The notes below the pieces were generated by a model that was not told the DNA's origin, made no database searches, and was given only the letters and a program-made list of their open reading frames with translations. A program made the translations under genes and the position numbers. This document shows positions 194 through 23,779 of a DNA stretch of 59,752 nt, one piece after another. Numbering within the stretch: the first letter of the stretch is position 1; each line of letters starts with the position of its first letter. The DNA is from an uncultured cyanobacterium (GTDB lineage Bacteria; Cyanobacteriota; Cyanobacteriia; PCC-6307; Cyanobiaceae), in NCBI GenBank assembly GCA_903856805.1, contig CAIOCZ010000142.1:1-59752 (forward strand), given 5' to 3'.

Positions 194-217
194 ATGGGGG
201 GCCCCGCTGGATTCAGG
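189..217. terminator. Possible hairpin between convergent genes
   Basis: The 7-base arms CCTGAAT (189-195) and ATTCAGG (211-217) are perfectly complementary and flank a GGGGGGCCCC core. The structure covers the stop codons of both convergent genes. There is no clear T-run on either side, so a terminator role is inference. Confidence 0.3.
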
Positions 218-1349
218 GCGTGGTGGCCGCTGCGGGTGATGGGACCACTGGGGCTTCCGCCGCGGGGCTCACCACTTCGGGGGCCGGAGCCTGAGCCACT
301 GGCGGTGCGGCCGCTGCGGGGGCCAAGACACGCTCAGCAGGGGCCGCTGGAGCGACTTCCACGGGGGCGGGGGCCGGGAGGGGGGCGGTCTTGGTGGCGG
401 TGGCCACCGGGCCGGTCACGTCCGCGATGGGGTGGAGCTCCACCACGGCGGGAGCCACATGGCCGGTTTCTGGAGCCCGTTGACGGCTCGACCAGTCCTT
501 GATCTCCTGGATCACCGCCGGATTGTCAGGGTGGCTGAGGATGTCAACGCTGCCATCGCTCTGCACCGCCAAGGGGACACTCGTGGTGCGGGTGACCCGG
601 GTTGAGGGAACATGAATGACCCGGGCCGCTTCCATGCGGCCAGAGGGGGGTTGGACCTGCTGAACGGCTTTGCGCATGGGATCGCGCCAGGGCTGGGGCA
701 GGGGGGCCATCGGGTCCCCGCTGTAGGCCCAGCGCGCGCGTTCAGCCCGCGCCATCGGGGGCATCACCACGCCATCGAGGCTGGCATCCGCGCCATTCAG
801 GGTGAGGGTGCCGCCAAGCAATGCGGAACGGTTGAAAACGTTCTTGAAGGACGGGGGGAGGGGGCTGGTCCGGGCGGCGACGGTTCGGCTGACTCCCGTG
901 GGGGCAGGCGTCACCGACGCACTGGCGGTGCGTTCGCGATAGGGGGTGGAGGGCCAGAACTTGGGGCTGGCGGAACCTTTGGACAGCAGAGGAGAGCCGG
1001 GAAGGGCTTGCTGGTCCACGGTGCGCAGGGGCGAACCGTGAAGAAGTGGATCGGCCGACCCTCGGGAAGCGCTGAGAACCATGCCGCTGGATTCCCAGCG
1101 GGCGGCCAAGGCTCCAGCCGCATCCTTGGCCTGGCTGGGCCGGGTTGGGGTTTTAGGTGTCAGGACGACGGGGGTGGAGGGGCTGGAGCTGGCGACGGCA
1201 TTGGTGCTGGAGGGAGGGGTCCGATCCGCCACGCTCGCCCGCCAATGGTCATGGGCGTCGATGGCCACGAGCGGGAGCCAGATGGTCTGACTCAGGAGGG
1301 CCCAGCCAATGGTCTTGGCACTGAGCGGGGATTGCTGGGGGTGGTGCAT
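213..1349 (-). CDS. Hypothetical protein with N-terminal hydrophobic segment and Pro/Ala-rich tail
   Basis: A 378-residue protein of unknown function. It starts with a short cationic stretch and one hydrophobic segment (about residues 12-31) that could be a signal anchor. A long Ser/Thr/Pro/Ala-rich region follows, and the last 70 or so residues are almost entirely Ala, Pro, Val and Thr. The middle (about 180-290) is less biased and contains aromatic and charged residues, so it may be the only folded part. It lies directly downstream of, and on the same strand as, the Wza-like export gene, 82 bases away, so a role at the cell envelope is plausible by position only. Dense low-complexity composition makes overlapping false frames likely, but this frame begins with ATG and has the best start context. 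No family assignment is offered. Confidence 0.5.
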   Translation of the reverse strand: MHHPQQSPLSAKTIGWALLSQTIWLPLVAIDAHDHWRASVADRTPPSSTNAVASSSPSTPVVLTPKTPTRPSQAKDAAGALAARWESSGMVLSASRGSADPLLHGSPLRTVDQQALPGSPLLSKGSASPKFWPSTPYRERTASASVTPAPTGVSRTVAARTSPLPPSFKNVFNRSALLGGTLTLNGADASLDGVVMPPMARAERARWAYSGDPMAPLPQPWRDPMRKAVQQVQPPSGRMEAARVIHVPSTRVTRTTSVPLAVQSDGSVDILSHPDNPAVIQEIKDWSSRQRAPETGHVAPAVVELHPIADVTGPVATATKTAPLPAPAPVEVAPAAPAERVLAPAAAAPPVAQAPAPEVVSPAAEAPVVPSPAAATTP

Positions 1350-1431: not shown

Positions 1432-2619
1432 TCAGTTGTTGTTGTAGCGCCAGTAGTAGCTCCAGAAGTTTCCGAGTTGGCTGAGGGGCAGAACCACTTG
1501 ATTCAGCACATCAACGGACTTGCCGTAGACGCTGCGGTTGACCACGACGGTGTCGTTGTCGCGCAGGGGAGGATTGAGTCCATTTGAGACTCCTTTGTTG
1601 TAGTTGAGTTTGAAGACTTCGCGGGTGGTCGTGCCATTGCGATTCAGGCGGACCAGTTCAACGTTGCCGGTGTTGGCGCGCCAGTCGGTCGGTCCACCGG
1701 CCTTGAGAATGGCTTCAACAAGTGGGGTGTTGGCGCGCAGGCTGAGGGTGCCGGGGGTCTTGACCTCGCCGATGACGGTCACATTGATGGTGGCTGGACT
1801 GAGGTTGGATGCCGCCAGTTGGAGCACCTCATCGGGTAGGGGCTGGTTGGTGCGGGCGATCACCAAGGTGTCCCCGTCAAAGAGCAAAGGATTTTGGTTT
1901 TGGTTTCCGAACTGGAGTAATTCGGCCAGATTGAGAACCGTCTGCTTCTGGTTGCCGTCCGGGCCCGCCAGTCGCCGGCGCAGAAGAACGTTGCGGACGT
2001 CCGCATTCAGGGTGATGCCCCCCGCGGCCTGAATGGCTGCAACGGGGTTGGTCCCGGTCGTCAGCGGGTAAAGGCCTGGGCGCTGGACCTCTCCCAACAC
2101 CGAGACCTTCACCGGCCGCGGGGTGGTGAGGGTGAGAAAAAGCTGGGGCCGCAGGAGCTGGCGGGAATAAAGAGAGGTGAGCCAGCGGGTGGCCTGGCCG
2201 ATCGTCAGGCCAGTGAGCTGGACGGAACCAAGCAGGGCAAGGGTGGCGGTGCCGTCCGGCAGGATCGATAGGCCGCCGCCGACGCTGGAGGCGGTGGGGT
2301 CAAGAAAGGTGAGCTGGAGGATATCCCCGGGTCCGAGCACATAGAGATCAGATTCGAGCTGGGGCGAGGACGCGAACGGAGCGGTTCGCGGCAGGCCTCC
2401 GGGGCTGCCGGATGGGGTGGCGGCCAGCAGGGGAGCTCCGGGCACAAGGCCGACGGCCAAGACGAAAGCTCCGACGAGAGGAGCCAGGCGAGGGCGGCGG
2501 ATCCGTTGGACCGCTGGGATGGGGAGACATCCTGCCGTGGGGGAGGGAGCGGTAGCCGGGGCCAGGAGGGCCGAGGACTCGACAACCGATGCGGAACTTG
2601 TGCTTTTCAGCGCTTGCAC
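1432..2619 (-). CDS. Polysaccharide export protein, Wza-like (Poly_export/SLBB)
   Basis: An outer-membrane polysaccharide export protein that would form the secretion channel partnered with the Wzc-like protein encoded divergently at 2719. After a GTG start and a Ser/Ala/Pro-rich leader there is a hydrophobic segment (about residues 46-66) ending in an Ala-rich cleavage-like site. The Poly_export motif YVLGPGDILQL opens at about residue 93, and at least two SLBB-type beta-grasp repeats follow, marked by VLGEVQRPGLYPL and VIGEVKTPGTLSL. The length (395 aa) is typical. The start is uncertain because the leader before the hydrophobic segment is unusually long. The stop is followed by the Pro/Ala-rich hypothetical gene on the same strand. 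Confidence 0.9.
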   Translation of the reverse strand: MQALKSTSSASVVESSALLAPATAPSPTAGCLPIPAVQRIRRPRLAPLVGAFVLAVGLVPGAPLLAATPSGSPGGLPRTAPFASSPQLESDLYVLGPGDILQLTFLDPTASSVGGGLSILPDGTATLALLGSVQLTGLTIGQATRWLTSLYSRQLLRPQLFLTLTTPRPVKVSVLGEVQRPGLYPLTTGTNPVAAIQAAGGITLNADVRNVLLRRRLAGPDGNQKQTVLNLAELLQFGNQNQNPLLFDGDTLVIARTNQPLPDEVLQLAASNLSPATINVTVIGEVKTPGTLSLRANTPLVEAILKAGGPTDWRANTGNVELVRLNRNGTTTREVFKLNYNKGVSNGLNPPLRDNDTVVVNRSVYGKSVDVLNQVVLPLSQLGNFWSYYWRYNNN

Positions 2620-2718: not shown

Positions 2719-5343
2719 GTGACCACGACGGGCGCACCTGCTGATTCAGCTTCCGGGAGCGAACTGCTCGGAGGAGGGGGAAGCGGTTTTGGGCGCTCCA
2801 CGTTTAACGATCCTTCGTTCCAGTCTTCTCCCCTGGGCCCTTCCCTTGAAGATCGCTCCAGTGGCGGCGTCAGTGGACTGGTTCGCACCGTTAAACGTCG
2901 ACAGGGCCTGTTCCTGTTCGTCTTCGCTTTGGTGACTGGCGCCCTCGCCGTCGATACCTTGCGCCAGCGCATCTTTTCACCCGTCTACCAGGGTGGTTTT
3001 CAGATGCAGATCAGCAATCCTTTTGACGAGAATCGGAAAAGTCAGATTGACTCCAATGGCGGCACTGTGGAGCAGATTGCCCGTAGTTCGGTGCAGAATG
3101 ATGTGCCGAGTCTGGTGGTTCTCCTGCGTAGTCCCCTGCTGATCAAGGGGTTAGCGGAAAAAAACGGTGTGGGTATGAATGAAGTTATTAATAATCTCAG
3201 CATTGCCCCGGCCTCCGGCGATGTGCAGAACGTGTTGAATGTCACGTTGCGCTGGCGGGATCCGGTTAAGGGACGAGCGATATTAAATCAGTTGTCTCAG
3301 GAGTACACCAATTTCTCACTCACCCAGCGGCAGGCAACCCTCGATTCAGGTGTGAATTTCCTTGATCAGCAGGCCCCTGATCTGTTAAGCCGAGTCGAGA
3401 AACTGCAGACCGAGTTGCGGACGTTCCGCGAGCGGAACAATTTCCTAGAGCCTGCCACCCAGGGGGCCGCGATCCAGGCCTCGCGCGACGGCTTGGTGAC
3501 GGAGTTGCGCCAATTGCAGGTGTCCCAGGCCCAGTTGGAAAGTCAGCTGTCCTCCGTGAAGGCCGGTCGGCTCCAGTTCAACGGCAGCGGAGCCCCCACC
3601 GCCGTGGCCACCCTGGGCCCCACCAGCTTGGCTACGGCTCCCCGGGATAACGGTGCTCAGGCGGCGGTTGGCACCCCTACGCCGGTGCAGCAGCTTTCCC
3701 AGCTCGAGCAGGATCTGGCTACCGCCCGGGCCACGTATCGGGATGATTCCCCTGTGGTGCAGTCGATCAAGGCTCGACGGGATCAGTTGTTGCCGGTGGT
3801 GCAGGGACAGGCCGTGGATAGCCTGCGGGCTGGCTTGCTTGCCAATGCTGCCCAACAGGACGAGATCAATCGCCAGATTCTGCTGCTTAACGACAATTTC
3901 CGCACCAGTCCCCGCAAAATCAAGGAATACGAGGATGTGCAGCAACGGTTGGCCGTTGCCCGTGACAACTACTCCTCTTATATCCGTGCCCGCGAAACGT
4001 TCCGATTGGAACGGGCCCGTTCCACCACCCCTTGGCAGGTGATTGCCCCGGCCGAATTCACGGAAGTGCCCGTGGAGCCCAATATCCAGCGCAACCTGTT
4101 GAGGGCCTTGGTCCTGGGGCTGTTAGCGGGTTTGGGGGCGGCAATCTTGCGGGAGCGCACCGACAACGTCTTCCATACCCCCATGGAAGCGGAGCGGGAC
4201 TTGCAACTGCCCGTCCTGGGTCTGATTCCCTATCTGCCCCTGGAGCCCGGGGTCGAAATTTCCACCAGCATCGCCAAAATGTCGGCGAGCGAGCGTTTTG
4301 CCATCAAGGAATCGCTGCGGAGCCTGTTCACCACCTTCCGTCTGCTCCGGGCCGATCGGGACATCCGACTGGTGGGAGTCACCTCCTCCACCCAGGGGGA
4401 GGGAAAATCCACCGCCGTGACCATTTTTGCTCGTACCCTCGCTGATCTCGGCCTCAAGGTCCTGATCATTGATGCGGACATGCGTCTGCCGATGCAGAAC
4501 CGCTACTTGGGAGTGGAGCCCGGCGATGGACTTTCCAGTCTGCTCTCCGATCCCAACATCAAACCCGAGCAGGTTATCCAAACCATCCAGGAAAATCTCG
4601 ATGTCATGCCGGCGGGTCCCAAGCCCCCGGATCCCGCCAAGCTGCTCAACTCGGCACGCTGCCAAGAGGTGGTGGCTGAAATCAGGGCCCTGCCTGGTTA
4701 CGACATCGTTCTCTTCGATGCCCCCCCCTGTCTGATGCTGGCCGATCCGATCCTGCTGGGTGAAAAACTTGACGGCATTCTGTTCTTAGTTGGCCTTGGC
4801 AAGGTGAGTCGCCAATTGGCACCTCAGGCCGCTCGTCGCATCAAAGCCACGGGTGTTGATGTTTTGGGTCTGATCTGTAACCAGGTGAACTTCCCAAGCC
4901 GCCTGAACGACTATGGCTATGAATATGGCTATTACTACCATTACGCGTATGCGTCGAACTATGGATCTAACCGTTATTCCACCTACGGTAAGTACGGCAA
5001 GGGGTTCATGGGGTATGTTAAGCGCTATCGTGATTCCTATGTCAATAATCGTTATCGTGATTCCTATATGACCAAGGGGGCTTCTGGCGTGGCTGGCCGT
5101 CTGCGCGATGGCAATGCGGTCCAGCGGTATCAGGACGCAGCGGTGTCCGAGGAAGCGCGGCTCAAGCGCGAGGCCGCCGAAGCGGTCAAGGGTTCCGACA
5201 GTGCCCCAGACACGGTGGACATCACCGCCTCAACCACCGATCCAAAGGGTTCCGGGAGATCAGGAAATTGGCTCAGGGATCGGCTGCGGCCGGATTCCCG
5301 TTCCAACCGCACCCCTGATGATCGACCCGATGGTGAGGCCTGA
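2719..5343 (+). CDS. Wzc-like polysaccharide co-polymerase and BY-type tyrosine kinase
   Basis: An inner-membrane chain-length regulator fused to a bacterial tyrosine kinase, 874 residues from a GTG start. A Gly/Ser-rich N-terminus leads to a first membrane helix (about 61-80). A long periplasmic Wzz-type helical region follows, then a second helix (about 459-475). The cytoplasmic kinase has Walker A STQGEGKST (about 556-564), Walker A' LIIDADMR (about 582-589) and Walker B VLFDAPP (about 663-669). The regulatory tyrosine cluster lies at about 732-783 with 17 tyrosines. Unusually it is followed by about 90 hydrophilic residues, whereas in Wzc and CapB the cluster is normally at the C-terminus. 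The gene diverges from the Wza-like gene and converges with a phosphatase gene, so kinase and possible counter-enzyme are neighbours. Confidence 0.92.
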   Translation: MTTTGAPADSASGSELLGGGGSGFGRSTFNDPSFQSSPLGPSLEDRSSGGVSGLVRTVKRRQGLFLFVFALVTGALAVDTLRQRIFSPVYQGGFQMQISNPFDENRKSQIDSNGGTVEQIARSSVQNDVPSLVVLLRSPLLIKGLAEKNGVGMNEVINNLSIAPASGDVQNVLNVTLRWRDPVKGRAILNQLSQEYTNFSLTQRQATLDSGVNFLDQQAPDLLSRVEKLQTELRTFRERNNFLEPATQGAAIQASRDGLVTELRQLQVSQAQLESQLSSVKAGRLQFNGSGAPTAVATLGPTSLATAPRDNGAQAAVGTPTPVQQLSQLEQDLATARATYRDDSPVVQSIKARRDQLLPVVQGQAVDSLRAGLLANAAQQDEINRQILLLNDNFRTSPRKIKEYEDVQQRLAVARDNYSSYIRARETFRLERARSTTPWQVIAPAEFTEVPVEPNIQRNLLRALVLGLLAGLGAAILRERTDNVFHTPMEAERDLQLPVLGLIPYLPLEPGVEISTSIAKMSASERFAIKESLRSLFTTFRLLRADRDIRLVGVTSSTQGEGKSTAVTIFARTLADLGLKVLIIDADMRLPMQNRYLGVEPGDGLSSLLSDPNIKPEQVIQTIQENLDVMPAGPKPPDPAKLLNSARCQEVVAEIRALPGYDIVLFDAPPCLMLADPILLGEKLDGILFLVGLGKVSRQLAPQAARRIKATGVDVLGLICNQVNFPSRLNDYGYEYGYYYHYAYASNYGSNRYSTYGKYGKGFMGYVKRYRDSYVNNRYRDSYMTKGASGVAGRLRDGNAVQRYQDAAVSEEARLKREAAEAVKGSDSAPDTVDITASTTDPKGSGRSGNWLRDRLRPDSRSNRTPDDRPDGEA

Positions 5344-5427: not shown

Positions 5428-5940
5428 TCAGTTCTTCAGCACCTGGTCCAGCACATCGAGATGCTCGTAGATCGGTTTGGCCATGGGGTGGCAACGACGG
5501 ACCCAGTCCAGGGCGCTGAAGAGATCGATCTGACGCAGGCGTGCCGTCAGTCCCACCGCCATTAACGACGAGCGTTCGACCCCGGCAAGGCAGTGCAGAT
5601 ACACCGGGGAGCCGGCGTCGACCATGGCCTGGGCCTGGTTAAGGGCCTCCATAAGCCGTTCCGGCGACATCGGTTCCTGGTTACGGTGGTCGGGTAGGGC
5701 CACCCCCCCGCTTTGCCACAGCTCCGGGACCTTCGCCTGAAGGTCCTCCTCTGGATAGCAGCAGCTGAATCGCCGCCGGAATCCCGCCAATTCCAATTGT
5801 TCCCAATGACCTTGGGTGCGTGGCATGGGTCCAATGGCCAGCTGTTGGGTCAGGATCCAGCTGTACGGAAGGGGCCCGTCCGGGCGGATGGAGCCAGAAC
5901 GTTCTGGGTTACGGCGAAATAGGCGGGGCAGGGACTCCAT
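5428..5940 (-). CDS. Dual-specificity-type protein phosphatase
   Basis: A small (170 aa) cysteine-dependent phosphatase. The signature loop HCLAGVERSS places the nucleophile at Cys117 and the phosphate-binding Arg at 123. The upstream LPDHRNQEP segment offers Asp84 as the likely general acid, as in the dual-specificity/tyrosine phosphatase fold. There is no signal peptide, so it should act in the cytoplasm. It is convergent with the Wzc-like kinase gene and downstream of the cyanoexosortase pair on the same strand (55 bases). By analogy with Wzb-Wzc or CpsB-CpsD pairs it may dephosphorylate the kinase tyrosine cluster. That link is inference from position; the protein is not a low-molecular-weight phosphatase of the Wzb type. 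Confidence 0.85.
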   Translation of the reverse strand: MESLPRLFRRNPERSGSIRPDGPLPYSWILTQQLAIGPMPRTQGHWEQLELAGFRRRFSCCYPEEDLQAKVPELWQSGGVALPDHRNQEPMSPERLMEALNQAQAMVDAGSPVYLHCLAGVERSSLMAVGLTARLRQIDLFSALDWVRRCHPMAKPIYEHLDVLDQVLKN

Positions 5941-5995
5941 TGACGGCGGTCAGGGGCGGGCGGGCGGCGGAGTGGTCAGGGTGGGAATGGGGCCC

Positions 5996-6694
5996 TCAGG
6001 GGGCTGGCCTGGATGACCCTATCGGCTGCCCCCGCTGGGAGGGTGCTTCGCGTTCCAGGGCTGGCCGCAGTTGCGTTAGCAGCTGCTCCCAGCTCCTGTC
6101 ATCCGGCGGAGTCGCCTCGGGGTTCCTCAGGCTGATGAGTACACAGCGGTAGACGTGATTGGGGCGGAGCCCCAGCATCCTTACCAGCTTGTTGCGGATT
6201 CCGGTGTTGTTCTGGTTGGCGGCAGTTCCCAGCTCTTCGACGGTCACACCCCAGGCCCCGGGGCCCTTAACCCCCGGGACCAGACAGGTTTGACGAGCGC
6301 CTCTTCCCTTCACCTGGCCAATGGCACTGCTGCCCTGCGTGGTCAGCACCTGACGCCGTTTCAATTTCAGACCGCCAAGATCCCTCGCGATGAAACTGAT
6401 TTGGAAGCTGTCCAGTTGGCGCACGGTCGCCTGTACCAAGCGAAGGTCTCGGCCATCGGACCAGCGGTAGTGAAGGATCGAGGAATGGGCCAATTCGTAT
6501 CCGTCTTCGGCGGGGCGGCTGGCTTGGGCCTGGGCAGGCGGTGCCGAAGCGGCCAAGGCAGCCGTGATCGCAGCAGCATCGAGGGGAGTGTGGCGAGGGG
6601 CACTTGGGAAGGCGATGGCCTTCCCAACCGCCACGGTGGCGACGAGAGCGAGACCGCCATACAAGCGGTTCAACAGGGTGGGGGACGGGGACAT
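5996..6694 (-). CDS. Cyanoexosortase A system-associated protein
   Basis: A 232-residue protein with one N-terminal hydrophobic segment (about 12-29) and a hydrophilic, probably extracytoplasmic remainder. It starts 20 bases after the stop of the cyanoexosortase gene on the same strand. Cyanoexosortases are known to be followed by a poorly conserved companion of this size and topology, and that context is the main basis for the name. The C-terminal 30 residues are Pro/Ser/Arg-rich. No catalytic motif is apparent. In related exosortase systems such companions (EpsI-like) are thought to contribute to polysaccharide processing or to the sorting complex; the role here is unproven. Confidence 0.7.
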   Translation of the reverse strand: MSPSPTLLNRLYGGLALVATVAVGKAIAFPSAPRHTPLDAAAITAALAASAPPAQAQASRPAEDGYELAHSSILHYRWSDGRDLRLVQATVRQLDSFQISFIARDLGGLKLKRRQVLTTQGSSAIGQVKGRGARQTCLVPGVKGPGAWGVTVEELGTAANQNNTGIRNKLVRMLGLRPNHVYRCVLISLRNPEATPPDDRSWEQLLTQLRPALEREAPSQRGQPIGSSRPAP

Positions 6695-6714
6695 GTCGTA
6701 AAGCCTGGTGAGGA

Positions 6715-7626
6715 TCAGGCGTGGCGATCGTTGGTGGGTTGATCCAGCGGCGGCAGCTCCCGTTCCAGCAATCTCATGTACAGCACACCGAAGATAAATA
6801 CAGCAATTCCTGAGAACACGAGCGATCCTGTCTCTTTGTGGAAAAAGTCAAATAGAAAGGTTCCTTTGCCCTGGGACTGACTAGAGCAAATGGTGAGAAT
6901 GGCAATGCGAATGGTGTTGCAGATCAGCCCGATCAGGGGGGCTGCCAGCAGCATCAGCAACCGGCTTCGGTTGGATCGGATTGGGAATGCCAGCAGAAAA
7001 ATGAGACCGATGCAGATGATTTGCCCCATCATGTCGATGCCGTTGCAGGCTGCCATGACCGTGACCCCGCCTGTGGGCAGCATCACTTCGCGGCCCCTCA
7101 CCATCACATTGAGGCCCAGGATGCTCAGCCAGTTGCCCGCCATGGTGGCGGTAAGGAGGCTGATTGGTTGTTCAGGGAGGAGTTTGAAGATCAGGGAATA
7201 GCCAGGGATCAACATCAGGCAGAGAAAGGGATCCCGAAATTGTTTTAGCTGGCGCAGGGGTTGGCAGAGCAGGGCAAGGGCCAGGCCAGCCAGGGGAGCC
7301 AGGATGTACAGAATCCCATCCCAGTGCATGATCATGGCGCTTCGGGCCAAGATCCACAGCACTAGGGGAGTGCCCAGCACCAGGCCCACCAGGCTGGGCT
7401 GGGGACGCAGGTGTTCGAATTGATCTTCCATGCAAATCACCGCGCCACCCCAGACCATCAGGACGAGCACGGTGGTGTTCGGGTCTTGACTGGTATGAAA
7501 AACGGCAATGTTTTGGGTGGCTACCAAGGCCGCCAGCAGCAACCAAAGATTGCGTGGTGTGGCAGGCGGGATGGCGGGGATCTGCTCTCGCACCCAGGGG
7601 GGAAGGCGATCCAGGAGTGGTGTCAT
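6715..7626 (-). CDS. crtA: Cyanoexosortase A (exosortase-family transpeptidase-like membrane protein)
   Basis: An integral membrane protein of 303 residues with about eight hydrophobic segments. The three invariant exosortase residues are visible in order: Cys194 in AACNGIDMM, Arg240 in NTIRIAIL and His263 in FFHKETGSLVF. The family is proposed to cleave PEP-CTERM sorting signals and move the protein to the envelope, and its genes usually sit in exopolysaccharide loci, as here. The start follows the FlaA1-like gene stop by 4 bases, and the companion gene follows. I found no PEP-CTERM protein in the window, so the substrates must be elsewhere. The symbol follows the cyanoexosortase naming and should not be confused with carotenoid crtA. 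Confidence 0.88.
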   Translation of the reverse strand: MTPLLDRLPPWVREQIPAIPPATPRNLWLLLAALVATQNIAVFHTSQDPNTTVLVLMVWGGAVICMEDQFEHLRPQPSLVGLVLGTPLVLWILARSAMIMHWDGILYILAPLAGLALALLCQPLRQLKQFRDPFLCLMLIPGYSLIFKLLPEQPISLLTATMAGNWLSILGLNVMVRGREVMLPTGGVTVMAACNGIDMMGQIICIGLIFLLAFPIRSNRSRLLMLLAAPLIGLICNTIRIAILTICSSQSQGKGTFLFDFFHKETGSLVFSGIAVFIFGVLYMRLLERELPPLDQPTNDRHA

Positions 7627-7630
7627 GACC

Positions 7631-9631
7631 TCAGGCGGCCTCGGTGTCCGGCTTGTATTCCGGGACGAGGCGAAGCATCAACCGGATCACCGAAGCATCT
7701 TCCCATTGGATCAGGGCCTGATCCAATTCCACGAGCAGCTCCTTGAGCTGGCCGGACGGGTGGTGGGGTTCGTTGGCCCGGCGGATCAGGGGGTGACGGG
7801 TGGGTTCGTTGCTGTCACTGATCAGCAGCTCCTCGTAGAGCTTCTCCCCTGGCCTCAGGCCGGTGTATTCAATGGCGATATCCCCTCGGGGGTTGGCCGT
7901 GTCACGCACCCGCAGCCCGGAGAGTTCAACCATCTGCCGGGCCAGATCAGCGATGCGCACCGGTTCGCCCATGTCCAGCAAGAACAGATCTCCCCCTTCT
8001 GCCATGCCCGTGGCCTGGAGCACCAGCTGAACCGCCTCCGGGATGGTCATGAAATAGCGGGTGATCGCTGGATGGGTGACGGTCACGGGTCCCCCCTGGG
8101 AGATTTGCTGATGAAATCTTGGAATCACCGATCCGGAGGATCCGAGCACATTGCCAAACCGCACCATCGACAAAATCGGGCTCCCCTGGATCCCTTGGGC
8201 GCGAATGTCGGCGGCGGCGGCCTGGATCAGCAGTTCGCAGATCCGCTTGCTGGCTCCCATCGCATTGGTGGGCCGCACGGCCTTGTCCGTGGAGATCAGG
8301 GTCAGCCGTTCGACTGAGCTGGCTAGGGCCGCTTGGATCACGGCGCGGGTGGCATGGATGTTGTTGGCAACACCAGCGCAAAGGTTGGCTTCCACCATCG
8401 GCACATGCTTGTAGGCGGCGGCATGAAACAGGGTGTTGATGCCATGGTCGCGGCAGAGCTTGGTGAGGCGGTCCGGATCGGCGGCATCGCCGAGCACGGG
8501 CACCAGGATTGTTTCCCTGGCTTGTTGGCGCAGTTCGCTTTCGATGGAGTACAGGGCATATTCACTGCGTTCGACCAGCAGCAACCTCAAGGCCCCAAGG
8601 CGGATGATTTGACGACAGAGTTCGCTGCCGATGGAGCCGCCGGCGCCGGTGACCAGCACCGCTTTGCCACGGACGGCCGCTTCCAGCAGCCTCGGGTCGG
8701 GGCTGGAGGGCTCCCGTCCAAGCAGATCTTCGATGGCGATGGGCTGGAGATCCGTGACCCCGCGCCGGCCGGTGGCCAGTTGGGCCAGGGATGGGATGGT
8801 CGACACTTTGAGCCCGCTGTGGGTCAGCTGGTCCACCAGCAGCCGTTTGCGGGTGCGTTCGAGGGATGGAATCGCCAGCAGCACCTGGTTGATGTTGTGA
8901 CGCTTGATCAGGGTCTGGATCCCTTCGGGACTGTGGATCGAGAGGGACTGGAGGGTGCGTCCGTGCAGCCGTCGATCGTCGTCGAGGAAACCCACGATGC
9001 GGAATTGAGGGTCGTTGCGCAGGGCCTGGAGCAGCATCATCCCAGCGCTCCCTGCCCCGTAGATCAGCGTTCCGGAGGTTTCCCGCGCCGTTCCCTGCAG
9101 GCTGCCGCTGATCAGGGTGTGCCGCACCAGCAGATCTCGCATCACGATGCGGCTGGAAATGGCCCCAGCGGTGAACAGCAGCCAGAACAGCAGCCAGAAC
9201 GAGCGGGGTGGCGGTGATCCTCCCAGCAGGGTGTCCGTCAGCAGCAGCACCAGCACCATCAAGCCGGAGCGAGGGGCCAGGCTGTAGAGGGAATGGCTCC
9301 CTGCATACCGGGTTAGTCCCCGGTACCAGCCCGAGGCAATCAGGACCGGCAGGCCGGTGAGGAGCGCGAGGGGCAGCAGGTTGGCATGGGCGCTCAGGAA
9401 GCTGAGGACACTTTCCCGATCCTGTAGACGAAGGGCAAAGGCTCCGCAGACCGACGCCAGGATCAGGAGGGAATCAAACAGCACCAAGGTCAGACGACGG
9501 GCGACGACCTGGCGACTAAGGGATCGCAACAGCGTCAAGGTCGGCAACCCTGAACGACGGGTCCAGATGGGACCGAATGGAAGATAGGACCTTGTGGCCT
9601 GCGCCACCTGCGAAAGGGCAGCTGTGATCAC
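7631..9631 (-). CDS. FlaA1/WbpM/CapD-type nucleotide-sugar 4,6-dehydratase, membrane-bound
   Basis: A 666-residue inner-membrane enzyme with four hydrophobic segments in the first 165 residues. Then come a CoA-binding-like Rossmann domain (GAGSAG about 193-198) and the catalytic SDR domain with TGAGGSIGS at 328-336. The active-site segment has Ser447 and MxxxK (Met458, Lys462) in place of YxxxK, which is the known WbpM/FlaA1 arrangement. It probably converts UDP-GlcNAc or a similar sugar to a 4-keto-6-deoxy intermediate for the polysaccharide. Its stop is 4 bases from the cyanoexosortase start, suggesting cotranscription with crtA, the companion and the phosphatase. The exact sugar cannot be read from the sequence. 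Confidence 0.9.
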   Translation of the reverse strand: MITAALSQVAQATRSYLPFGPIWTRRSGLPTLTLLRSLSRQVVARRLTLVLFDSLLILASVCGAFALRLQDRESVLSFLSAHANLLPLALLTGLPVLIASGWYRGLTRYAGSHSLYSLAPRSGLMVLVLLLTDTLLGGSPPPRSFWLLFWLLFTAGAISSRIVMRDLLVRHTLISGSLQGTARETSGTLIYGAGSAGMMLLQALRNDPQFRIVGFLDDDRRLHGRTLQSLSIHSPEGIQTLIKRHNINQVLLAIPSLERTRKRLLVDQLTHSGLKVSTIPSLAQLATGRRGVTDLQPIAIEDLLGREPSSPDPRLLEAAVRGKAVLVTGAGGSIGSELCRQIIRLGALRLLLVERSEYALYSIESELRQQARETILVPVLGDAADPDRLTKLCRDHGINTLFHAAAYKHVPMVEANLCAGVANNIHATRAVIQAALASSVERLTLISTDKAVRPTNAMGASKRICELLIQAAAADIRAQGIQGSPILSMVRFGNVLGSSGSVIPRFHQQISQGGPVTVTHPAITRYFMTIPEAVQLVLQATGMAEGGDLFLLDMGEPVRIADLARQMVELSGLRVRDTANPRGDIAIEYTGLRPGEKLYEELLISDSNEPTRHPLIRRANEPHHPSGQLKELLVELDQALIQWEDASVIRLMLRLVPEYKPDTEAA

Positions 9632-9895: not shown

Positions 9896-10930
9896 TTAAG
9901 CGAACGGGGCGGATCTGCAGCGATCCAGCCAGAATCCCGCTCCCAGGGTCACGGCCGCCAACGGCAGCACCAAGGGGAGGCCCCCCAGCACCAAGGCGCC
10001 GGCCAACACCACCGTGCTGCCCCCATAGAGCCCGGCCACCTGCCGGTGCGACCAGCCGGCCTGATGGAGGCGCTGAAACAGGTGCAATCGATGGGCTTGG
10101 AAGATGGGCTGGCCGGCTCGCCAGCGCCGCAGCACGCAGAGGCTCGCATCGGCGAGCAGGGGGAGGGCCACCAGCAGCAGGCCAAGGGCCCCTCCTGGCG
10201 TGGGTTGCTGCAACACCAGCCCGGCCAGCACCGCCCCCAACCAGGTGCTTCCCACATCTCCCATGAACACCCGGGCCGGACTCCAGTTCCAGATCAGAAA
10301 GCCGATCAACGCTCCCACCACACCCCACAGGCTGGCACTGGTGCCCAGGGCGGTGAGGCTGAGGAGAACCACGCAACAGGAGGCCACCAGGCCATCGAGG
10401 CCATCCATGAAATTGACGAAGTTGATCACGGCCGTGATCGCGATCAGTCCGAGCGGCCACAACCACCAGGGCAGGGGTAGGGCGGCGATCGCCAGCAGGA
10501 CCCCGGCCGTGAGCAGCTGGGCGCCGTAGCGCAGGCCGGCTGGGAGATCCAAGCGATCGTCCAGCAGCCCCACCATGGCCAGGGGACAGCAGAGCAGCGG
10601 AATCCAGCTGGCCCAGCTGCCATCCCCTCCCAGCCCACTCAGCCCACTGCCCACCACCACGAAGGCCAGTCCACCGCCGCGGGGCGTGGGCTGGCGATGG
10701 GAACTGCGGGCGTTCGGCCGGTCCAGCAGGCGCCGGCGCAGCCAGGGAATCAGGATCCACAGCAGCGCCCAGCTGGCCAGAGCCCCGGCCAGCAGACGGA
10801 TCAGGGCCACCCCGCTGGGGTGGGAGAGGCTGGCGGGAAGGGCTGGAAGGTGGGGGATCACGGCGAGATCGGAGCAACGGCGCCCGGCGGGGCGATCATC
10901 GGTCGCAACGCGGCGGCCAAAGGCGTCCAT
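9896..10930 (-). CDS. WecA/MraY-type undecaprenyl-phosphate sugar-1-phosphate transferase
   Basis: A polytopic membrane enzyme of up to 344 residues that would start the repeat unit by moving a sugar-1-phosphate from a UDP-sugar to the lipid carrier. The glycosyltransferase family 4 hallmarks are all present: PRGGGLAF after the first helix, [30 protein letters not shown] and the histidine-containing loop [11 protein letters not shown]. The ATG at 10930 overlaps the upstream gene by 35 bases, and the first 40 residues look non-conserved. An internal GTG at 10811, just before the first membrane helix, is therefore a credible real start. It is the only initiating transferase seen in the locus. 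Confidence 0.88.
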
Positions 10931-19272: not shown

Positions 19273-21303
19273 TCAGCTGCTGTGGTGAATCAGCGGCACC
19301 TTTGCGGCGTCGCCAGCGGCAGGGGCGGCGCGCGGCCCCTGCCCTGATGCGGTGCTGCCGCGGAACAGCGCGTGATGCAGGGCAAGGGCCAGCATCAGGT
19401 TCACCGGCACCATTTCCCCCAGGGAGCAGGTGAAGCTGGCCAGGGTCAGGATCGCCAGCAAGGGGCGGCCGCGGCGATCGTGGCGCAGACCCCAGCCGAG
19501 CAGGCCCAGGACGCTCAGCAGGGCCGGCAGTCCCCCCTGGATGAGGAGTAACCCCAACAGGCTTTCGGTGGGGATGAACCCCCCCGTCCCGTCGTCGGTG
19601 CCCAGCCCGTGCCTCAGGGCCACCGGCCAGGATGGGCTGGCTTGCTTCAACTGCCACACCAAATTGCCGCCACTGGCCAATCCGTGCCCCACCACCAGGC
19701 CAGTGGGTGGATTCAGGCTCAGGATTCGTTCCAGGTTGCGCAGCCGACCGAGGGGGGAGGCGAGCAGGTCCGGCCGGTTCAGCACCCGGGGCAGGTTCAC
19801 TACCAGCCCGATGACGAGAACCACCAGCGCCGCCCCCAAGAGGGCCTTGCCCAGGCCGCCGTCCAGACCAGGCCACCGCCGTGCCCGATGCCGTGCCCGA
19901 TGCCGTCCCCCCGGCATCCCCTGAAAGGCCAAGACCACCAGCAGGCCGAGCATGCCAGTGGCGGAGCGGGCCAGCAGCACTTCCACCGTGACCGCCAAGG
20001 TCAACCAGGGCAACCTTGGGCGAGCCTGGCTGAAGGCCAGACAGAAGGCCAGGGCCACCACGGCCACCACCCCGAGGGTGTTCGGCTGGCTGAAGCTGCC
20101 CGTCAGCCGGGTGGGCAGCGGTGGCCAGGCGGGGGTCAGGGCGCCGGTGACGCTCCCCGATCGCAGCGGCAGGCCTCGCATCGCCTCCAGCATCAGGAGG
20201 GGCAACTGCAGCAACACCAGCCATTCCAGGGCACGGGCCATTCGAGCCAACCGTGGCGGGGTGGTCAGCCAGCCGCCCACGAAGGTCAGGGGCAGCCAGC
20301 CGAGCCCCACCAGGCTCACCAGCACCGGGCCGATCTGACCTTGGCGCAGGCTGATGGCGAGGCCCAGTCCCAGGGAGAGCACCAGGGGCAGCAGCAGCGG
20401 TGCCAGGCTCCGCCACCGTCGCCATGGTGGCAGGGCTATCCGGCCGCTGGCCAGCAGCAGGAGGGACAGCACCAGGACGGCCCCCAGCAGACCTTGGCAG
20501 GCCAGCTTGGTGAGCCACTCCGCCGCCGAGAGGGTGAACAGCCGCTTGCTGTTGATCACCACCGCCTGGAAGGGGTGGAGGCTGACCAGACGAAGGCCAT
20601 GGCAGGACTGCGGTAGCCACAGCGTTTGAATCGGTGCTTGGCAGAAGCGGGCCAGATCCTGTTGATAGGCCGCCCCATCCAGCCAGCCGATGCGTCGCAG
20701 CAGAAAGGGCAGGCCCCCTCCCAGGCTGGTGACCACCATCAGGCCGCCAACAAATGTGCTCAGCCGGTCCAACTGGTCGGGGCGCAGGGGCTGCTGCGGG
20801 GAGGCGGAGCCTGGGGGGCGAGATCGGCCCCTCTGCCACCAGAGCAGGCCCGCCGCCCCGAGCGCACTGGGCAGGATGAGCACCTCCAGGGCCCTCTCCG
20901 CCCCCAGCCGGGCTGCGTAGCCGGCTCGGCTGGCCAGGGTCCAGCTGCCCCCGAAGACTCCCAGGCGTTGCAGGATCACGGCCAGGAGGGCGCTCAGCAC
21001 CGTCACGAGCAGGACAAGGGCCAGGGTGCTGGCCAGGAGCCGCAGCAGCTGTCGGAGCGGGGCCGGTCGGCGTTGGCCCACCGCTGAGCCCGTGGCCAGG
21101 CTGGCGGCCAGCAGCAGGCCCCAGCGCCAACCCCAGCCCATCAGGTAGCCCGGATCCAGGGGCTGGTCGATGCTGATCGGACCGAGCAGGCAGCCCAGCA
21201 GGAAGGCCAGGCCCAGGGCGGCCGCGAGGGTGGCACCGGCACCCAGGACGGCCACGCGCAGCCGGGCTGGTGAGGCCCCCTGCCCAGGGGAGTTCGCGGT
21301 CAT
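19273..21303 (-). CDS. O-antigen ligase/polymerase-like multispanning membrane protein (large)
   Basis: A 676-residue, very hydrophobic protein with more than ten predicted helices. It contains a large polar loop in the middle and the NTLGVVAVVALAF segment that resembles the Wzy_C/WaaL domain. It starts at ATG 21303, overlapping the beta-helix gene stop by 4 bases. The likely role is polymerisation of lipid-linked repeats or ligation to an acceptor in the periplasm. A GCCGTGCCCGAT tandem (19878-19901) encodes a local Arg/His/Ala repeat. A second member of this class is at 23783; which one is the polymerase cannot be told from sequence. Confidence 0.78.
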   Translation of the reverse strand: MTANSPGQGASPARLRVAVLGAGATLAAALGLAFLLGCLLGPISIDQPLDPGYLMGWGWRWGLLLAASLATGSAVGQRRPAPLRQLLRLLASTLALVLLVTVLSALLAVILQRLGVFGGSWTLASRAGYAARLGAERALEVLILPSALGAAGLLWWQRGRSRPPGSASPQQPLRPDQLDRLSTFVGGLMVVTSLGGGLPFLLRRIGWLDGAAYQQDLARFCQAPIQTLWLPQSCHGLRLVSLHPFQAVVINSKRLFTLSAAEWLTKLACQGLLGAVLVLSLLLLASGRIALPPWRRWRSLAPLLLPLVLSLGLGLAISLRQGQIGPVLVSLVGLGWLPLTFVGGWLTTPPRLARMARALEWLVLLQLPLLMLEAMRGLPLRSGSVTGALTPAWPPLPTRLTGSFSQPNTLGVVAVVALAFCLAFSQARPRLPWLTLAVTVEVLLARSATGMLGLLVVLAFQGMPGGRHRARHRARRWPGLDGGLGKALLGAALVVLVIGLVVNLPRVLNRPDLLASPLGRLRNLERILSLNPPTGLVVGHGLASGGNLVWQLKQASPSWPVALRHGLGTDDGTGGFIPTESLLGLLLIQGGLPALLSVLGLLGWGLRHDRRGRPLLAILTLASFTCSLGEMVPVNLMLALALHHALFRGSTASGQGPRAAPAAGDAAKVPLIHHSS

Positions 21304-22916
21304 CGCTCGGGACCGCCGGACGGCTCTGGGGTCAGCCATCCCGCCCGCAGCAGGGGGCCCAGGGACGCCGTGAAGGGATCGTCCCCCAGCTTCAGCCAGG
21401 CGGGCCCCAAGGGGCCAATCGCCAGGGGCAGGCCTCCGGGTCCCGGCCCCGGATTGCCTGTCCCCGGATTGCTTCGTCCCGACCACCACGGCGCCAGGGC
21501 CGTCGCCCCCTGCTCCGGCAGGGGCCGCGCCCCCTTCGGCAGGGGCACCAGCCGATTGGCGCTCAACTTCAGACCTGCCGGGAGCCGCTCGCCGAAGTCC
21601 TGGCGGCTCAGGAGAAGGTTGGCCTCCAGCCGGATTTGCTCCAGCCGCACCGCGGGATCTCGCCAGGCCAGGGCGTCGACCACGGCAAGGTTGTGGCGCA
21701 GCAGCACGTTGCGGATGGTGGCTTGCGGCTGGGGCCCCAAGCTGGGGGCGGCGCCTGCCATCAGTTTCAGCAGGGCTCCGGCCTGGCCTGGATCATTGAG
21801 AATCAGGTTCGTGTCGACGAGCAGCGGCCCCCGGGTGACGGGACTGGTCCCCAACGCCACCAGGGTGTGGCTGAGCAGGTTGTGGTCCACGAGGAGGTTG
21901 GCGGCGGGACCGTCAAATTCGATGCCATCGTCGAAGACCCGATCGATCAGGTTGCCGCTCACCCGGTTGCGTCCGCCGCTGGGTGACACCTTCAGCCCGT
22001 CGCCGGCATCGCTGATCACGTTGCCGCGGATGCTCAGGTTGCGGCCGCCGACCCAGACCAGCGTGCAGTTGGAGTAGCGGTAGATCTCGCTGCGGCTGAG
22101 CCACCCCCGCCGCCAGCGATCCAGCCCGGGGCACTGGCTGAGATTGCGCTCGATGCGCAGGCCATCCACCGGGTTCAGGCTGGCCCGGTCATTGATGGCC
22201 ACATCGGCATCCCGGAAGCGGTTGCCGCGGATCAGTACGTCACCGGTGGACCACAGCTGGATGGCGGCGGTCACCGCGAAATCGAACTGCAGATCACGAA
22301 TCTGCAGATGGGGGGCCTCCAGCCAGAGCAGCGCCGCCTGGTGGCCACCGGCCTTGAGCCGGCGCGGTAGGGGGCGATGGACCTCCAGCTGGCTGCCGGT
22401 GGGGGTTTGGCCCTGCGGTAGGCAGAGCACCAATTGGCTGTTCGCCGCGTAGAAGGCGGGCCCGGCACTGGTTCTGGCGCAGAGATCGCGCAGATGGGGC
22501 AGGGATCCTGCCCGATAGGCGGCCCAGCCATCCACCCGCAGGGCCTGAACCGGCCAGCGGATTGGGGTGACAAAGAGATGGGGCTGCCAGCGCCGCCAGC
22601 GCCAGCGAGCGACCTCGCCGGTGCCATCGGATCCGGAGAGGATTGCCTGTCCTGGCACGGCCGCTTGCAGCACGAGGGGGTGGCCGGCCCGGCCGCCGCG
22701 GCGGATTCGAACGGTTTCGTGATAAGTCCCCGGCCAAATCAGCACCGTGTCACCAGGCCTGGCCAGGTCTACGCCACGCTGCAGGCTGCGCACGGCCCGC
22801 TGGCGGGACCTTCCGTCCCCTCCATCGAAGCCATTGGGGGCCACATGCACCGGCCCTGGGCCCCTTGGAAGGATCGGCGGAGCTAGCGCATTGAGACCGG
22901 CCAGGATCAAGGCCAC
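21300..22916 (-). CDS. Secreted right-handed parallel beta-helix protein
   Basis: About 538 residues from a GTG at 22916 within a hydrophobic segment. Translation could start further upstream, where the frame overlaps the glycosyltransferase stop at 22964. After the N-terminal hydrophobic stretch there is a DUF1565-like opening (VHVAPNGFDGGDG then SLQRGVDLARPGDTVLIWPGTYHETV). Rungs of a parallel beta-helix follow: LQIRDLQF, VLIRGNRF, LSIRGNVISDAGDG, NRVSGNLIDRVFDDGIEF and LLVDHNLL. Such folds are shared by polysaccharide lyases, C5-epimerases and hydrolases. It probably trims or modifies the polymer outside the membrane. The catalytic residues cannot be assigned, and the C-terminus is Gly/Pro-rich. 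Confidence 0.8.
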   Translation of the reverse strand: MALILAGLNALAPPILPRGPGPVHVAPNGFDGGDGRSRQRAVRSLQRGVDLARPGDTVLIWPGTYHETVRIRRGGRAGHPLVLQAAVPGQAILSGSDGTGEVARWRWRRWQPHLFVTPIRWPVQALRVDGWAAYRAGSLPHLRDLCARTSAGPAFYAANSQLVLCLPQGQTPTGSQLEVHRPLPRRLKAGGHQAALLWLEAPHLQIRDLQFDFAVTAAIQLWSTGDVLIRGNRFRDADVAINDRASLNPVDGLRIERNLSQCPGLDRWRRGWLSRSEIYRYSNCTLVWVGGRNLSIRGNVISDAGDGLKVSPSGGRNRVSGNLIDRVFDDGIEFDGPAANLLVDHNLLSHTLVALGTSPVTRGPLLVDTNLILNDPGQAGALLKLMAGAAPSLGPQPQATIRNVLLRHNLAVVDALAWRDPAVRLEQIRLEANLLLSRQDFGERLPAGLKLSANRLVPLPKGARPLPEQGATALAPWWSGRSNPGTGNPGPGPGGLPLAIGPLGPAWLKLGDDPFTASLGPLLRAGWLTPEPSGGPER

Positions 22917-22963
22917 CAGGGCCAGGGTGGGAGGAATCCGGATCCGAGGATTGCTGCCGGAGG

Positions 22964-23779
22964 TCAGGGGGCGTTGCGCCCCTGGTCGCCGGCAATCCGT
23001 TGCTCCTGCAGGCGCAGTAATAACAGCACCTCCGCATAGAGCCGCTGAATCGCATAAAACAGTCCGAGGCGACCATCGAAGATCCCTCCCTTCAGGAACA
23101 GGCAGACCACAAGGGCGGCGATGGGTGCCAAGGGCGTGTGCTTCCTCAGCCGATCCGCCAGGGCCAATTGGCCCGAGGGTGTGGCCAGAAGTTTGTTGGC
23201 TTCGGTGCGGAGATACCCGTCCTGGGCCGCCAGCCATCGATCGAGGCTTTTGCGGTCGTCATGGAGCAGGGGGTGGTTCAGGGGCCGCACGGTGCCGTCA
23301 ATCTTGAGGCGATGGCCATGGCCGTCGTCCTGATAGCGACCCAGGCCAGCCCGGTAAAGGGCGGTGCGGGCGGGATAGAGGGTTCCCCGGAGGGGACGGC
23401 CAGCGATGCAGTAACGAAAGCGGATAGCAAAGCCGCATACGGCAGTATCGATGGGTGAACTCAGGCGTTCCTGGATTTCGTTCTGGAGGGCAGTGGGAAC
23501 CACATAGTCCGCATCCAGGCTCAAAACCCAGCCCCTGCTGATCTGATCGAGCCCGAAATTGCATTGGCGGGCGAAGCTGTCAAACCGCCGATGGATCACG
23601 GTGACATTGGCAAAGCCGGCCAGGATCTCGAGTGTGCCGTCGGTGCTACCGCTATCGATCACCAGAATCCGCGGAATCCATGTCAGCGCCTTGATGGTGC
23701 GATCGATGTTGGCGATCTCATTGAAGGTGAGCACCAAGGCCGTGAGATCCAGGGGGCTTGACGGCGGGAACGGGGTCAC
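22964..23779 (-). CDS. Glycosyltransferase family 2
   Basis: A 271-residue GT-A transferase. It has the opening LTALVLTFNEIANIDRTI, then VIDSGSTDGTLEI, and the metal-binding DAD in LSLDADYVV (about residue 92-94). The FNE-based start is like the WaaE/KdtX type that adds a sugar to a lipid or core acceptor. It ends inside the possible 5' region of the beta-helix gene and begins 3 bases after the polymerase-like gene stop. The C-terminal third has no clear membrane segment beyond one hydrophobic patch. Confidence 0.88.
   Translation of the reverse strand: MTPFPPSSPLDLTALVLTFNEIANIDRTIKALTWIPRILVIDSGSTDGTLEILAGFANVTVIHRRFDSFARQCNFGLDQISRGWVLSLDADYVVPTALQNEIQERLSSPIDTAVCGFAIRFRYCIAGRPLRGTLYPARTALYRAGLGRYQDDGHGHRLKIDGTVRPLNHPLLHDDRKSLDRWLAAQDGYLRTEANKLLATPSGQLALADRLRKHTPLAPIAALVVCLFLKGGIFDGRLGLFYAIQRLYAEVLLLLRLQEQRIAGDQGRNAP

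Follow-up and report, generated by a model that had tools for sequence, protein, structure and literature searches.

A probable PGP-CTERM protein-sorting system shares a polysaccharide-export locus with a dual-specificity-type phosphatase in a Cyanobiaceae genome

In the PEP-CTERM/EpsH system, substrate proteins have a signal peptide and a C-terminal motif followed by a hydrophobic stretch and a basic end, and occur in many scattered copies; the enzyme EpsH carries the motifs Cys-x-Gly, Asn-x-x-Arg and His-x-x-x-Gly and lies in a polysaccharide locus (PMC1569441; this and the other papers are cited from extracts). Cyanoexosortase B of Nostoc punctiforme has the companion TIGR04533, is located with Wza, Wzc and Wzy, and has PEP-CTERM substrates that are not confined to the locus (PMC12188702). 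By these accounts, it is usual for the exosortase to be encoded among polysaccharide genes and for its substrates to be dispersed (PMC1569441, PMC12188702). In Synechocystis, Wzb, a low-molecular-weight (LMW) phosphatase, was shown to act on Wzc, whose C-terminus is tyrosine-rich (PMC6562117); two phosphatase families are named in the title of PMC2777267. Here we analyzed a stretch of 59,752 bases (the window), which is an entire contig of the 3.0 Mb genome (185 contigs) of an uncultured freshwater picocyanobacterium of the family Cyanobiaceae and encodes an exosortase, a companion protein and a phosphatase. We consider it likely that two modules share one address: protein sorting by exosortase and companion through a variant tag, named PGP-CTERM here, and control of a Wzc-type kinase by a phosphatase with dual-specificity phosphatase (DUSP) fold.

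The earlier note on this DNA had described a FlaA1-like gene, a cyanoexosortase A, a companion and a Cys-dependent phosphatase as one minus-strand unit inside a polysaccharide locus. The unit, comprising the open reading frames (ORFs) at 5428-9631, is tight, with gaps of 55, 20 and 4 bases from phosphatase to FlaA1-like gene, and the setting is a polysaccharide locus because an exporter, a kinase, a WecA-like transferase and glycosyltransferases surround the exosortase; both descriptions were confirmed. The exosortase matched PF09721 (2.7e-30, 106 bits; gathering score 25.7) and TIGR04178 (45.6 bits; cut-off 23). The catalytic residues named in the note, C194, R240 and H263, lie in CNG, NTIR and HKETG; in an alignment of 70 exosortases they are kept in 100, 100 and 99% of the sequences. 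Model scores and the triad in Cys-x-Gly, Asn-x-x-Arg and His-x-x-x-Gly context place the protein in the exosortase/archaeosortase family. The label cyanoexosortase A stood only in part: TIGR03763 was the best NCBIfam model, but its score of 134.3 bits is below the cut-off of 150, and the protein falls into a clade of its own. In a tree of the 70 exosortases this clade (27 rows, support 100/95) separated both from 30 cyanoexosortase A proteins that exceed the cut-off and come from other families, and from a second clade within the same family, which has 13 rows and mostly lacks tails. An exosortase match was found in 37 of 201 Cyanobiaceae genomes (41 places), none of the 201 having a TIGR03763 match over the cut-off, and in 157 of 242 genomes of a class-wide sample.

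Tail and PEP-CTERM model searches gave no match on the window's contig, in agreement with the note, which had seen no PEP-CTERM C-terminus there and had suggested that substrates are encoded elsewhere. The curated cyanobacterial PEP-CTERM model produced three matches in the source genome at E-values (E) up to 1, none of them over the cut-off. One, on contig C120, was a genuine protein end; the protein looks secreted, and its last residues are VPGPLSILGATAAFGWSRKLRRRLVMN. With this tail as query, 19 matches were obtained in the same genome, 17 at E <1e-3. All but one (L022) were ORF ends, at most 45 residues from the stop, and all 18 of these proteins are encoded on contigs other than the window's. 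The tails consist of P-[G/A/S]-P-L-P, a short hydrophobic stretch and SRRLRRR, and share the tripartite C-terminal architecture of PEP-CTERM proteins (motif, hydrophobic stretch, basic end). The motif was PGP in 16 tails, PAP in one and PSP in one, with no Pro-Glu-Pro among the 18. Thus, many tagged proteins do exist elsewhere, as the note had proposed to check, but with PGP, PAP or PSP in place of PEP; likely targets escaped notice because their tails have Pro-Gly-Pro where Pro-Glu-Pro is usual.

None of the 18 proteins, scanned whole, reached an NCBIfam sorting-tag cut-off (21.6 bits for TIGR04155, 16 for TIGR02595). L015 came closest to the former with 19.3 bits, and the best TIGR02595 score was 13.6. 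When the bare tails (37-46 residues) were scanned, weak matches were obtained to TIGR02595 for 6 of 18 and to PID_CTERM for 7 of 18 (best E 0.004 and 0.0035, respectively). An N-terminal 13-residue segment with a mean hydropathy of at least 1.5 was present in 15 of the 18 proteins (a hydropathy measure only, applied to the scanned part); a hydrophobic segment was visible further in for L007 and L018, and none was visible for L014. Two proteins had a Pfam domain at E 0.001 (CHRD and YHYH), and L023 had a match to choice-of-anchor C below the cut-off (30.9 of 120 bits). Judged by its sequence, the tag is an uncatalogued PEP-CTERM variant.

To compare tails with exosortases we used the same 201 Cyanobiaceae genomes for both. 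At E 0.01, 44 genomes had tail matches. For 27 of them the best match was below 1e-9 (strong tails), with the next genome at 2.1e-5. Strong tails were present in 24 of the 26 genomes containing the 27-row exosortase clade, as opposed to 3 of 175 others (Fisher p 1.3e-25, ancestry ignored), and with the source organism's own genus left out the figures were 13 of 15 and 3 of 175 (p 1.3e-15, ancestry ignored). Fetched loci contributed 23 further tails, which by eye were 16 PGP, 6 PAP and 1 PGS, again with no PEP. The tag variant seems confined to the family, since at E 1e-4 only 2 of the 242 class-wide genomes, both of the own genus, had a tail match although 157 had an exosortase match. Other cyanobacteria use PEP tags (extract of PMC1569441). 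None of the 201 family genomes matched TIGR04155 at E 0.001, a search in which no control genome matched either and weak canonical tags may be missed, or TIGR02595 at E 0.01, where again no control matched and the E limit is estimated to be stricter than the model cut-off.

Two observations concern other exosortases of the family. The second divergent clade (13 rows) includes L073, L074, L079, L080, L082, L116, L119 and L153-L158; its genomes are mostly without PGP tails, and substrates were not found with the PGP-tail, TIGR04155 and TIGR02595 searches. At L102 (G078:C2:1062000-1081000), in a genome of 1.7 Mb, a set of phosphatase, kinase and exporter genes lies at a distance of 11 kb from the exosortase, and there is a weak tail match in the vicinity.

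The companion goes with exosortases of the 27-row clade. A single-sequence search found it in 20 of the 201 genomes, and a profile search found it also beside more distant members of the clade. The window protein had no NCBIfam match at E 0.01 and no Pfam match at E 0.1; its C137 and C184 were invariant in 24 sequences. TIGR04153 did not match it at E 1. However, 2 of the 24 homologues matched this model weakly (best 1.8e-4), so that by sequence the protein is probably related, though remotely, to the known companion of cyanoexosortase A. The AlphaFold2 model (predicted local distance difference test score, pLDDT, 89.9) consists of one N-terminal helix and an alpha/beta domain. Foldseek gave no match at E 0.001 (best 0.18). 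The best VIA-align result was SciW (Z 7.1, 98 residues, 3.0 Å), followed by LpqN- and PsbP-like rows; these scores are in a range that possibly means only a common arrangement, and we claim no fold family for the companion.

The phosphatase most likely belongs to the second module. Its best Pfam match, PF00782 (DSPc; 3.7e-4, 20.8 of 33.5 bits), is below the gathering score, and homologues reached 6.7e-8. H116, C117 and R123 were invariant in 39 sequences. The AlphaFold2 model (pLDDT 90.0) has a DUSP fold, nearest DUSP23/VHZ. By motif and predicted structure (HCX5R loop and DUSP/protein tyrosine phosphatase (PTP) fold), the protein belongs to the dual-specificity phosphatase fold; with its DUSP fold and no PF01451 match it is not a Wzb of the LMW-PTP type. 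A possible lipid-phosphatase role like that of PTPMT1 (the rank-6 fold match) was set aside because of the gene context.

This context was analyzed at 56 places in 53 of the 201 genomes, mostly over about 7 kb on each side and in some cases cut by contig ends. A Wza-type exporter was present at 55 places, a kinase at 41 and one or the other at all 56, while an exosortase was near at 18. In a second collection, 41 of 47 phosphatase loci had an exporter or kinase and 32 had exosortase and companion; 11 named loci had the phosphatase with exporter or kinase and no exosortase. The six loci without exporter or kinase were L181 and L186 (at contig ends, with exosortase and companion), L198 and L199 (distant cyanobacterial loci), and L210 and L211 (non-cyanobacterial). 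The closest named phosphatase loci come from Cyanobium, Aphanothece, Synechococcus and other cyanobacterial assemblies, and exosortase loci that lack the phosphatase exist (e.g. L094, L095, L096 and L100). The link between phosphatase and exosortase that the note had raised is consistent in the own genus and was kept in 32 of the 33 closest named loci (L165-L197), but it does not extend over the family, where the phosphatase follows polysaccharide export genes.

The window's kinase has a GEGKST Walker A motif and 14 tyrosines within 40 residues near the C-terminus. Among 20 close kinases, the Walker A lysine was kept in all 16 with the phosphatase and replaced by arginine in all four without it. 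The densest 40 residues contained 4, 4, 1 and 1 tyrosines in kinases without the phosphatase, as against 4 to 14 in those with it (Mann-Whitney p 0.0028, ancestry uncorrected). These findings suggest that the phosphatase probably does Wzb's job on the neighboring polysaccharide-export kinase. The Wzc-type proteins of L094, L095, L096 and L100, which combine the Walker A Lys-to-Arg change with few C-terminal tyrosines in phosphatase-free exosortase loci, are possible pseudokinases, judging by these residues.

Alternatively, the phosphatase could be a true part of sorting in its own genus, recruited from the export locus and acting, for example, on the acceptor or the companion. Exosortase, companion and phosphatase are indeed consecutive in 11 of 11 own-genus genomes and in most of the 33 close named loci. 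However, at 38 of the 56 places the stretch around the phosphatase contains an exporter or kinase but lacks an exosortase, and in G280 the phosphatase, kinase and exporter are on contig C12 and the exosortase and companion on C15. Moreover, the phosphatase should be cytoplasmic, because no transmembrane segment or signal peptide is visible. We therefore regard a role in sorting as distinctly unlikely.

The tails might also be ordinary C-terminal membrane anchors, with the match to the exosortase reflecting genome size and shared ancestry. It is indeed mostly the family's larger genomes that have tails and exosortase, and no correction for ancestry was applied to the counts. On the other hand, the presence and absence of tails and exosortase covary inside genera g133, g144, g148, g158, g159 and g10, and alike tails are found on proteins otherwise without a common Pfam domain. 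Tail genes are, in addition, about tenfold denser near the exosortase: 14 lie within 8 kb of it, in 8 of 26 loci (394 kb), where ~1.3 would be expected from 241 tails in about 72 Mb (24 genomes). At L101 exosortase and companion are flanked by two tail genes, and at L088 and L089 two tail genes lie between companion and phosphatase. Ordinary anchors are thus a very unlikely explanation. The note had also considered a role in polysaccharide attachment, in which the exosortase would process the polysaccharide or its lipid carrier instead of proteins. The surrounding polysaccharide genes and the lack of a substrate gene in the window would fit such a role, but exosortases whose protein substrates are dispersed commonly have this setting (extract of PMC1569441), and 24 of the 26 genomes with the clade also encode tailed proteins, whose genes adjoin the exosortase in relatives. 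The idea, not needed and with nothing found in its favor, is extremely improbable.

Several points weigh against our explanation by a sorting module and a kinase-control module. The pairing p values ignore ancestry, and the 18 matches in the own genome arise by construction, because the tail profile was built from that genome. Two genomes with the exosortase clade, G078 and G385, lack strong tails, and three with strong tails, G271, G320 and G326, lack the clade (G320 and G326 being 85% and 88% complete). No tail gene is near the exosortase in the window or in any of the ten other main loci of the genus. As to the phosphatase, the four close kinases without it come from only two genera, L086 has it yet only 4 tyrosines in the densest 40 residues, and the distant kinases of L098, L110, L116, L117 and L119 keep the lysine and 8-10 tyrosines with no phosphatase near. 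The own genome also has an LMW phosphatase gene (contig C171) that could do the job; PF01451 matches were found in 170 of the 201 genomes, small genomes included, and none in the own-genus G381. Finally, the computation shows the tails, the conserved residues, their co-occurrence and gene linkage, the predicted phosphatase fold and the decay of kinase hallmarks where the phosphatase is absent, whereas we infer that and where the tails are cut, that there is an acceptor, and that the phosphatase acts on the kinase.

In the two-module explanation, the divergent cyanoexosortase and its companion would act on secreted proteins from genes scattered over the genome. These would cross the inner membrane via a putative signal peptide and be held by the hydrophobic C-terminal tail with its basic end. 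The Cys194/Arg240/His263 site would then cut them near P-[G/A]-P-L-P and perhaps join them to an acceptor. The DUSP-fold phosphatase would dephosphorylate the tyrosine-rich tail of the convergent Wzc-type kinase, as LMW Wzb does elsewhere. The genes concerned are listed in Table 1.

Table 1. Main features of the window.
Feature	Position	Strand	Remarks
DUSP-fold phosphatase, H116-C117-x5-R123	5428..5940	(-)	170 aa; inferred partner of Wzc-type kinase
Exosortase companion, predicted N-terminal helix and alpha/beta domain, C137/C184 invariant	5996..6694	(-)	232 aa
Divergent cyanoexosortase, CrtA-like, catalytic C194/R240/H263	6715..7626	(-)	303 aa
FlaA1-like nucleotide-sugar dehydratase, upstream polysaccharide gene of the unit	7631..9631	(-)	666 aa; PF02719 9.8e-114
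Wzc-type tyrosine autokinase, convergent with phosphatase	2719..5343	(+)	TIGR01007 9.8e-35, 119.9 of 108.05 bits
Wza-type outer-membrane polysaccharide exporter (OPX)	1432..2619	(-)	PF02563 3.3e-11, SLBB domains
WecA-like transferase	9896-10930		NCBIfam/Pfam scans

Ten further ORFs were scanned and include three glycosyltransferases, a carbamoyltransferase, an asparagine synthase and a nucleotide-sugar dehydratase. A 378-residue ORF (213-1349, minus strand) neighbors the Wza-type exporter in the window as well as in many related loci; it had no NCBIfam match at E 0.01 and no Pfam match at E 0.1 and may be an unrecognized part of the export module. Within the polysaccharide locus, a right-handed beta-helix protein (PF13229, 5.9e-7; 21300-23237, minus strand) is possibly a polymer-modifying enzyme.

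A more far-reaching possibility is a self-contained sorting system specific to freshwater picocyanobacteria, with a separate exosortase type, the PGP/PAP tag, a periplasmic companion domain that holds the tail, handover to Wza/Wzc and a DUSP-switched kinase. The tail-holding idea draws on the companion's weak fold resemblance to SciW and other EagR chaperones, whose ligands are transmembrane segments. We think this unlikely as a whole; if true, the DUSP-fold enzyme would be a third kind of phosphatase that switches a Wzc-type kinase.

Two things are new here: the tag together with the exosortase clade it accompanies, and the DUSP fold of an enzyme in the place where one would expect LMW Wzb. 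These statements of novelty rest on NCBIfam release 20.0, a copy of Pfam and literature searches. In the open-access literature we found no paper naming both 'exosortase' and 'Cyanobium' and none with both 'PEP-CTERM' and 'Pro-Gly-Pro'; 'dual specificity phosphatase' did not occur in the open-access literature sampled, nor was 'exosortase' found in the available part of the main text of PMC8205485 and PMC13308351. In Cyanobium-like picocyanobacteria the tag exposes a hidden set of proteins that are probably secreted or located at the surface, with as many as 19 per genome. It also indicates that glycine or alanine can probably take the place of the PEP glutamate in an exosortase tag, a point relevant to recognition by exosortases. 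A DUSP-type partner of the Wzc kinase, if true, would extend the set of two phosphatase families that the title of PMC2777267 names. Both the sorting and the phosphatase claims are testable in culturable strains such as Synechococcus sp. BO 8801 and Cyanobium sp. Cruz-8D1, which carry this locus.

Compared with known systems, the window exosortase resembles cyanoexosortase A in its best NCBIfam model and in having a companion gene directly downstream, two homologues of which match TIGR04153 weakly. It differs in scoring below the cut-off and lying outside the clade of the 30 members, and the PGP-type tail is absent (at E 1e-4) from all 240 class-sample genomes outside the own genus. As with cyanoexosortase B, exosortase and companion lie in a Wza/Wzc locus to which the substrates, putative ones here, are not confined (extract of PMC12188702), but the window exosortase scores 37.7 against a TIGR04156 cut-off of 300, and the substrates there are PEP-CTERM proteins. 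With PEP-CTERM/EpsH it shares the build of the tag, scattered copies of the tag, catalytic motifs and the polysaccharide locus; the near-invariant Pro-Glu-Pro there contrasts with Pro-Gly-Pro or Pro-Ala-Pro here (extract of PMC1569441). As in Synechocystis, a phosphatase accompanies a kinase whose C-terminus is rich in tyrosines, the phosphatase there being the LMW Wzb (extract of PMC6562117) and here a neighbor with predicted DUSP fold as the putative partner.

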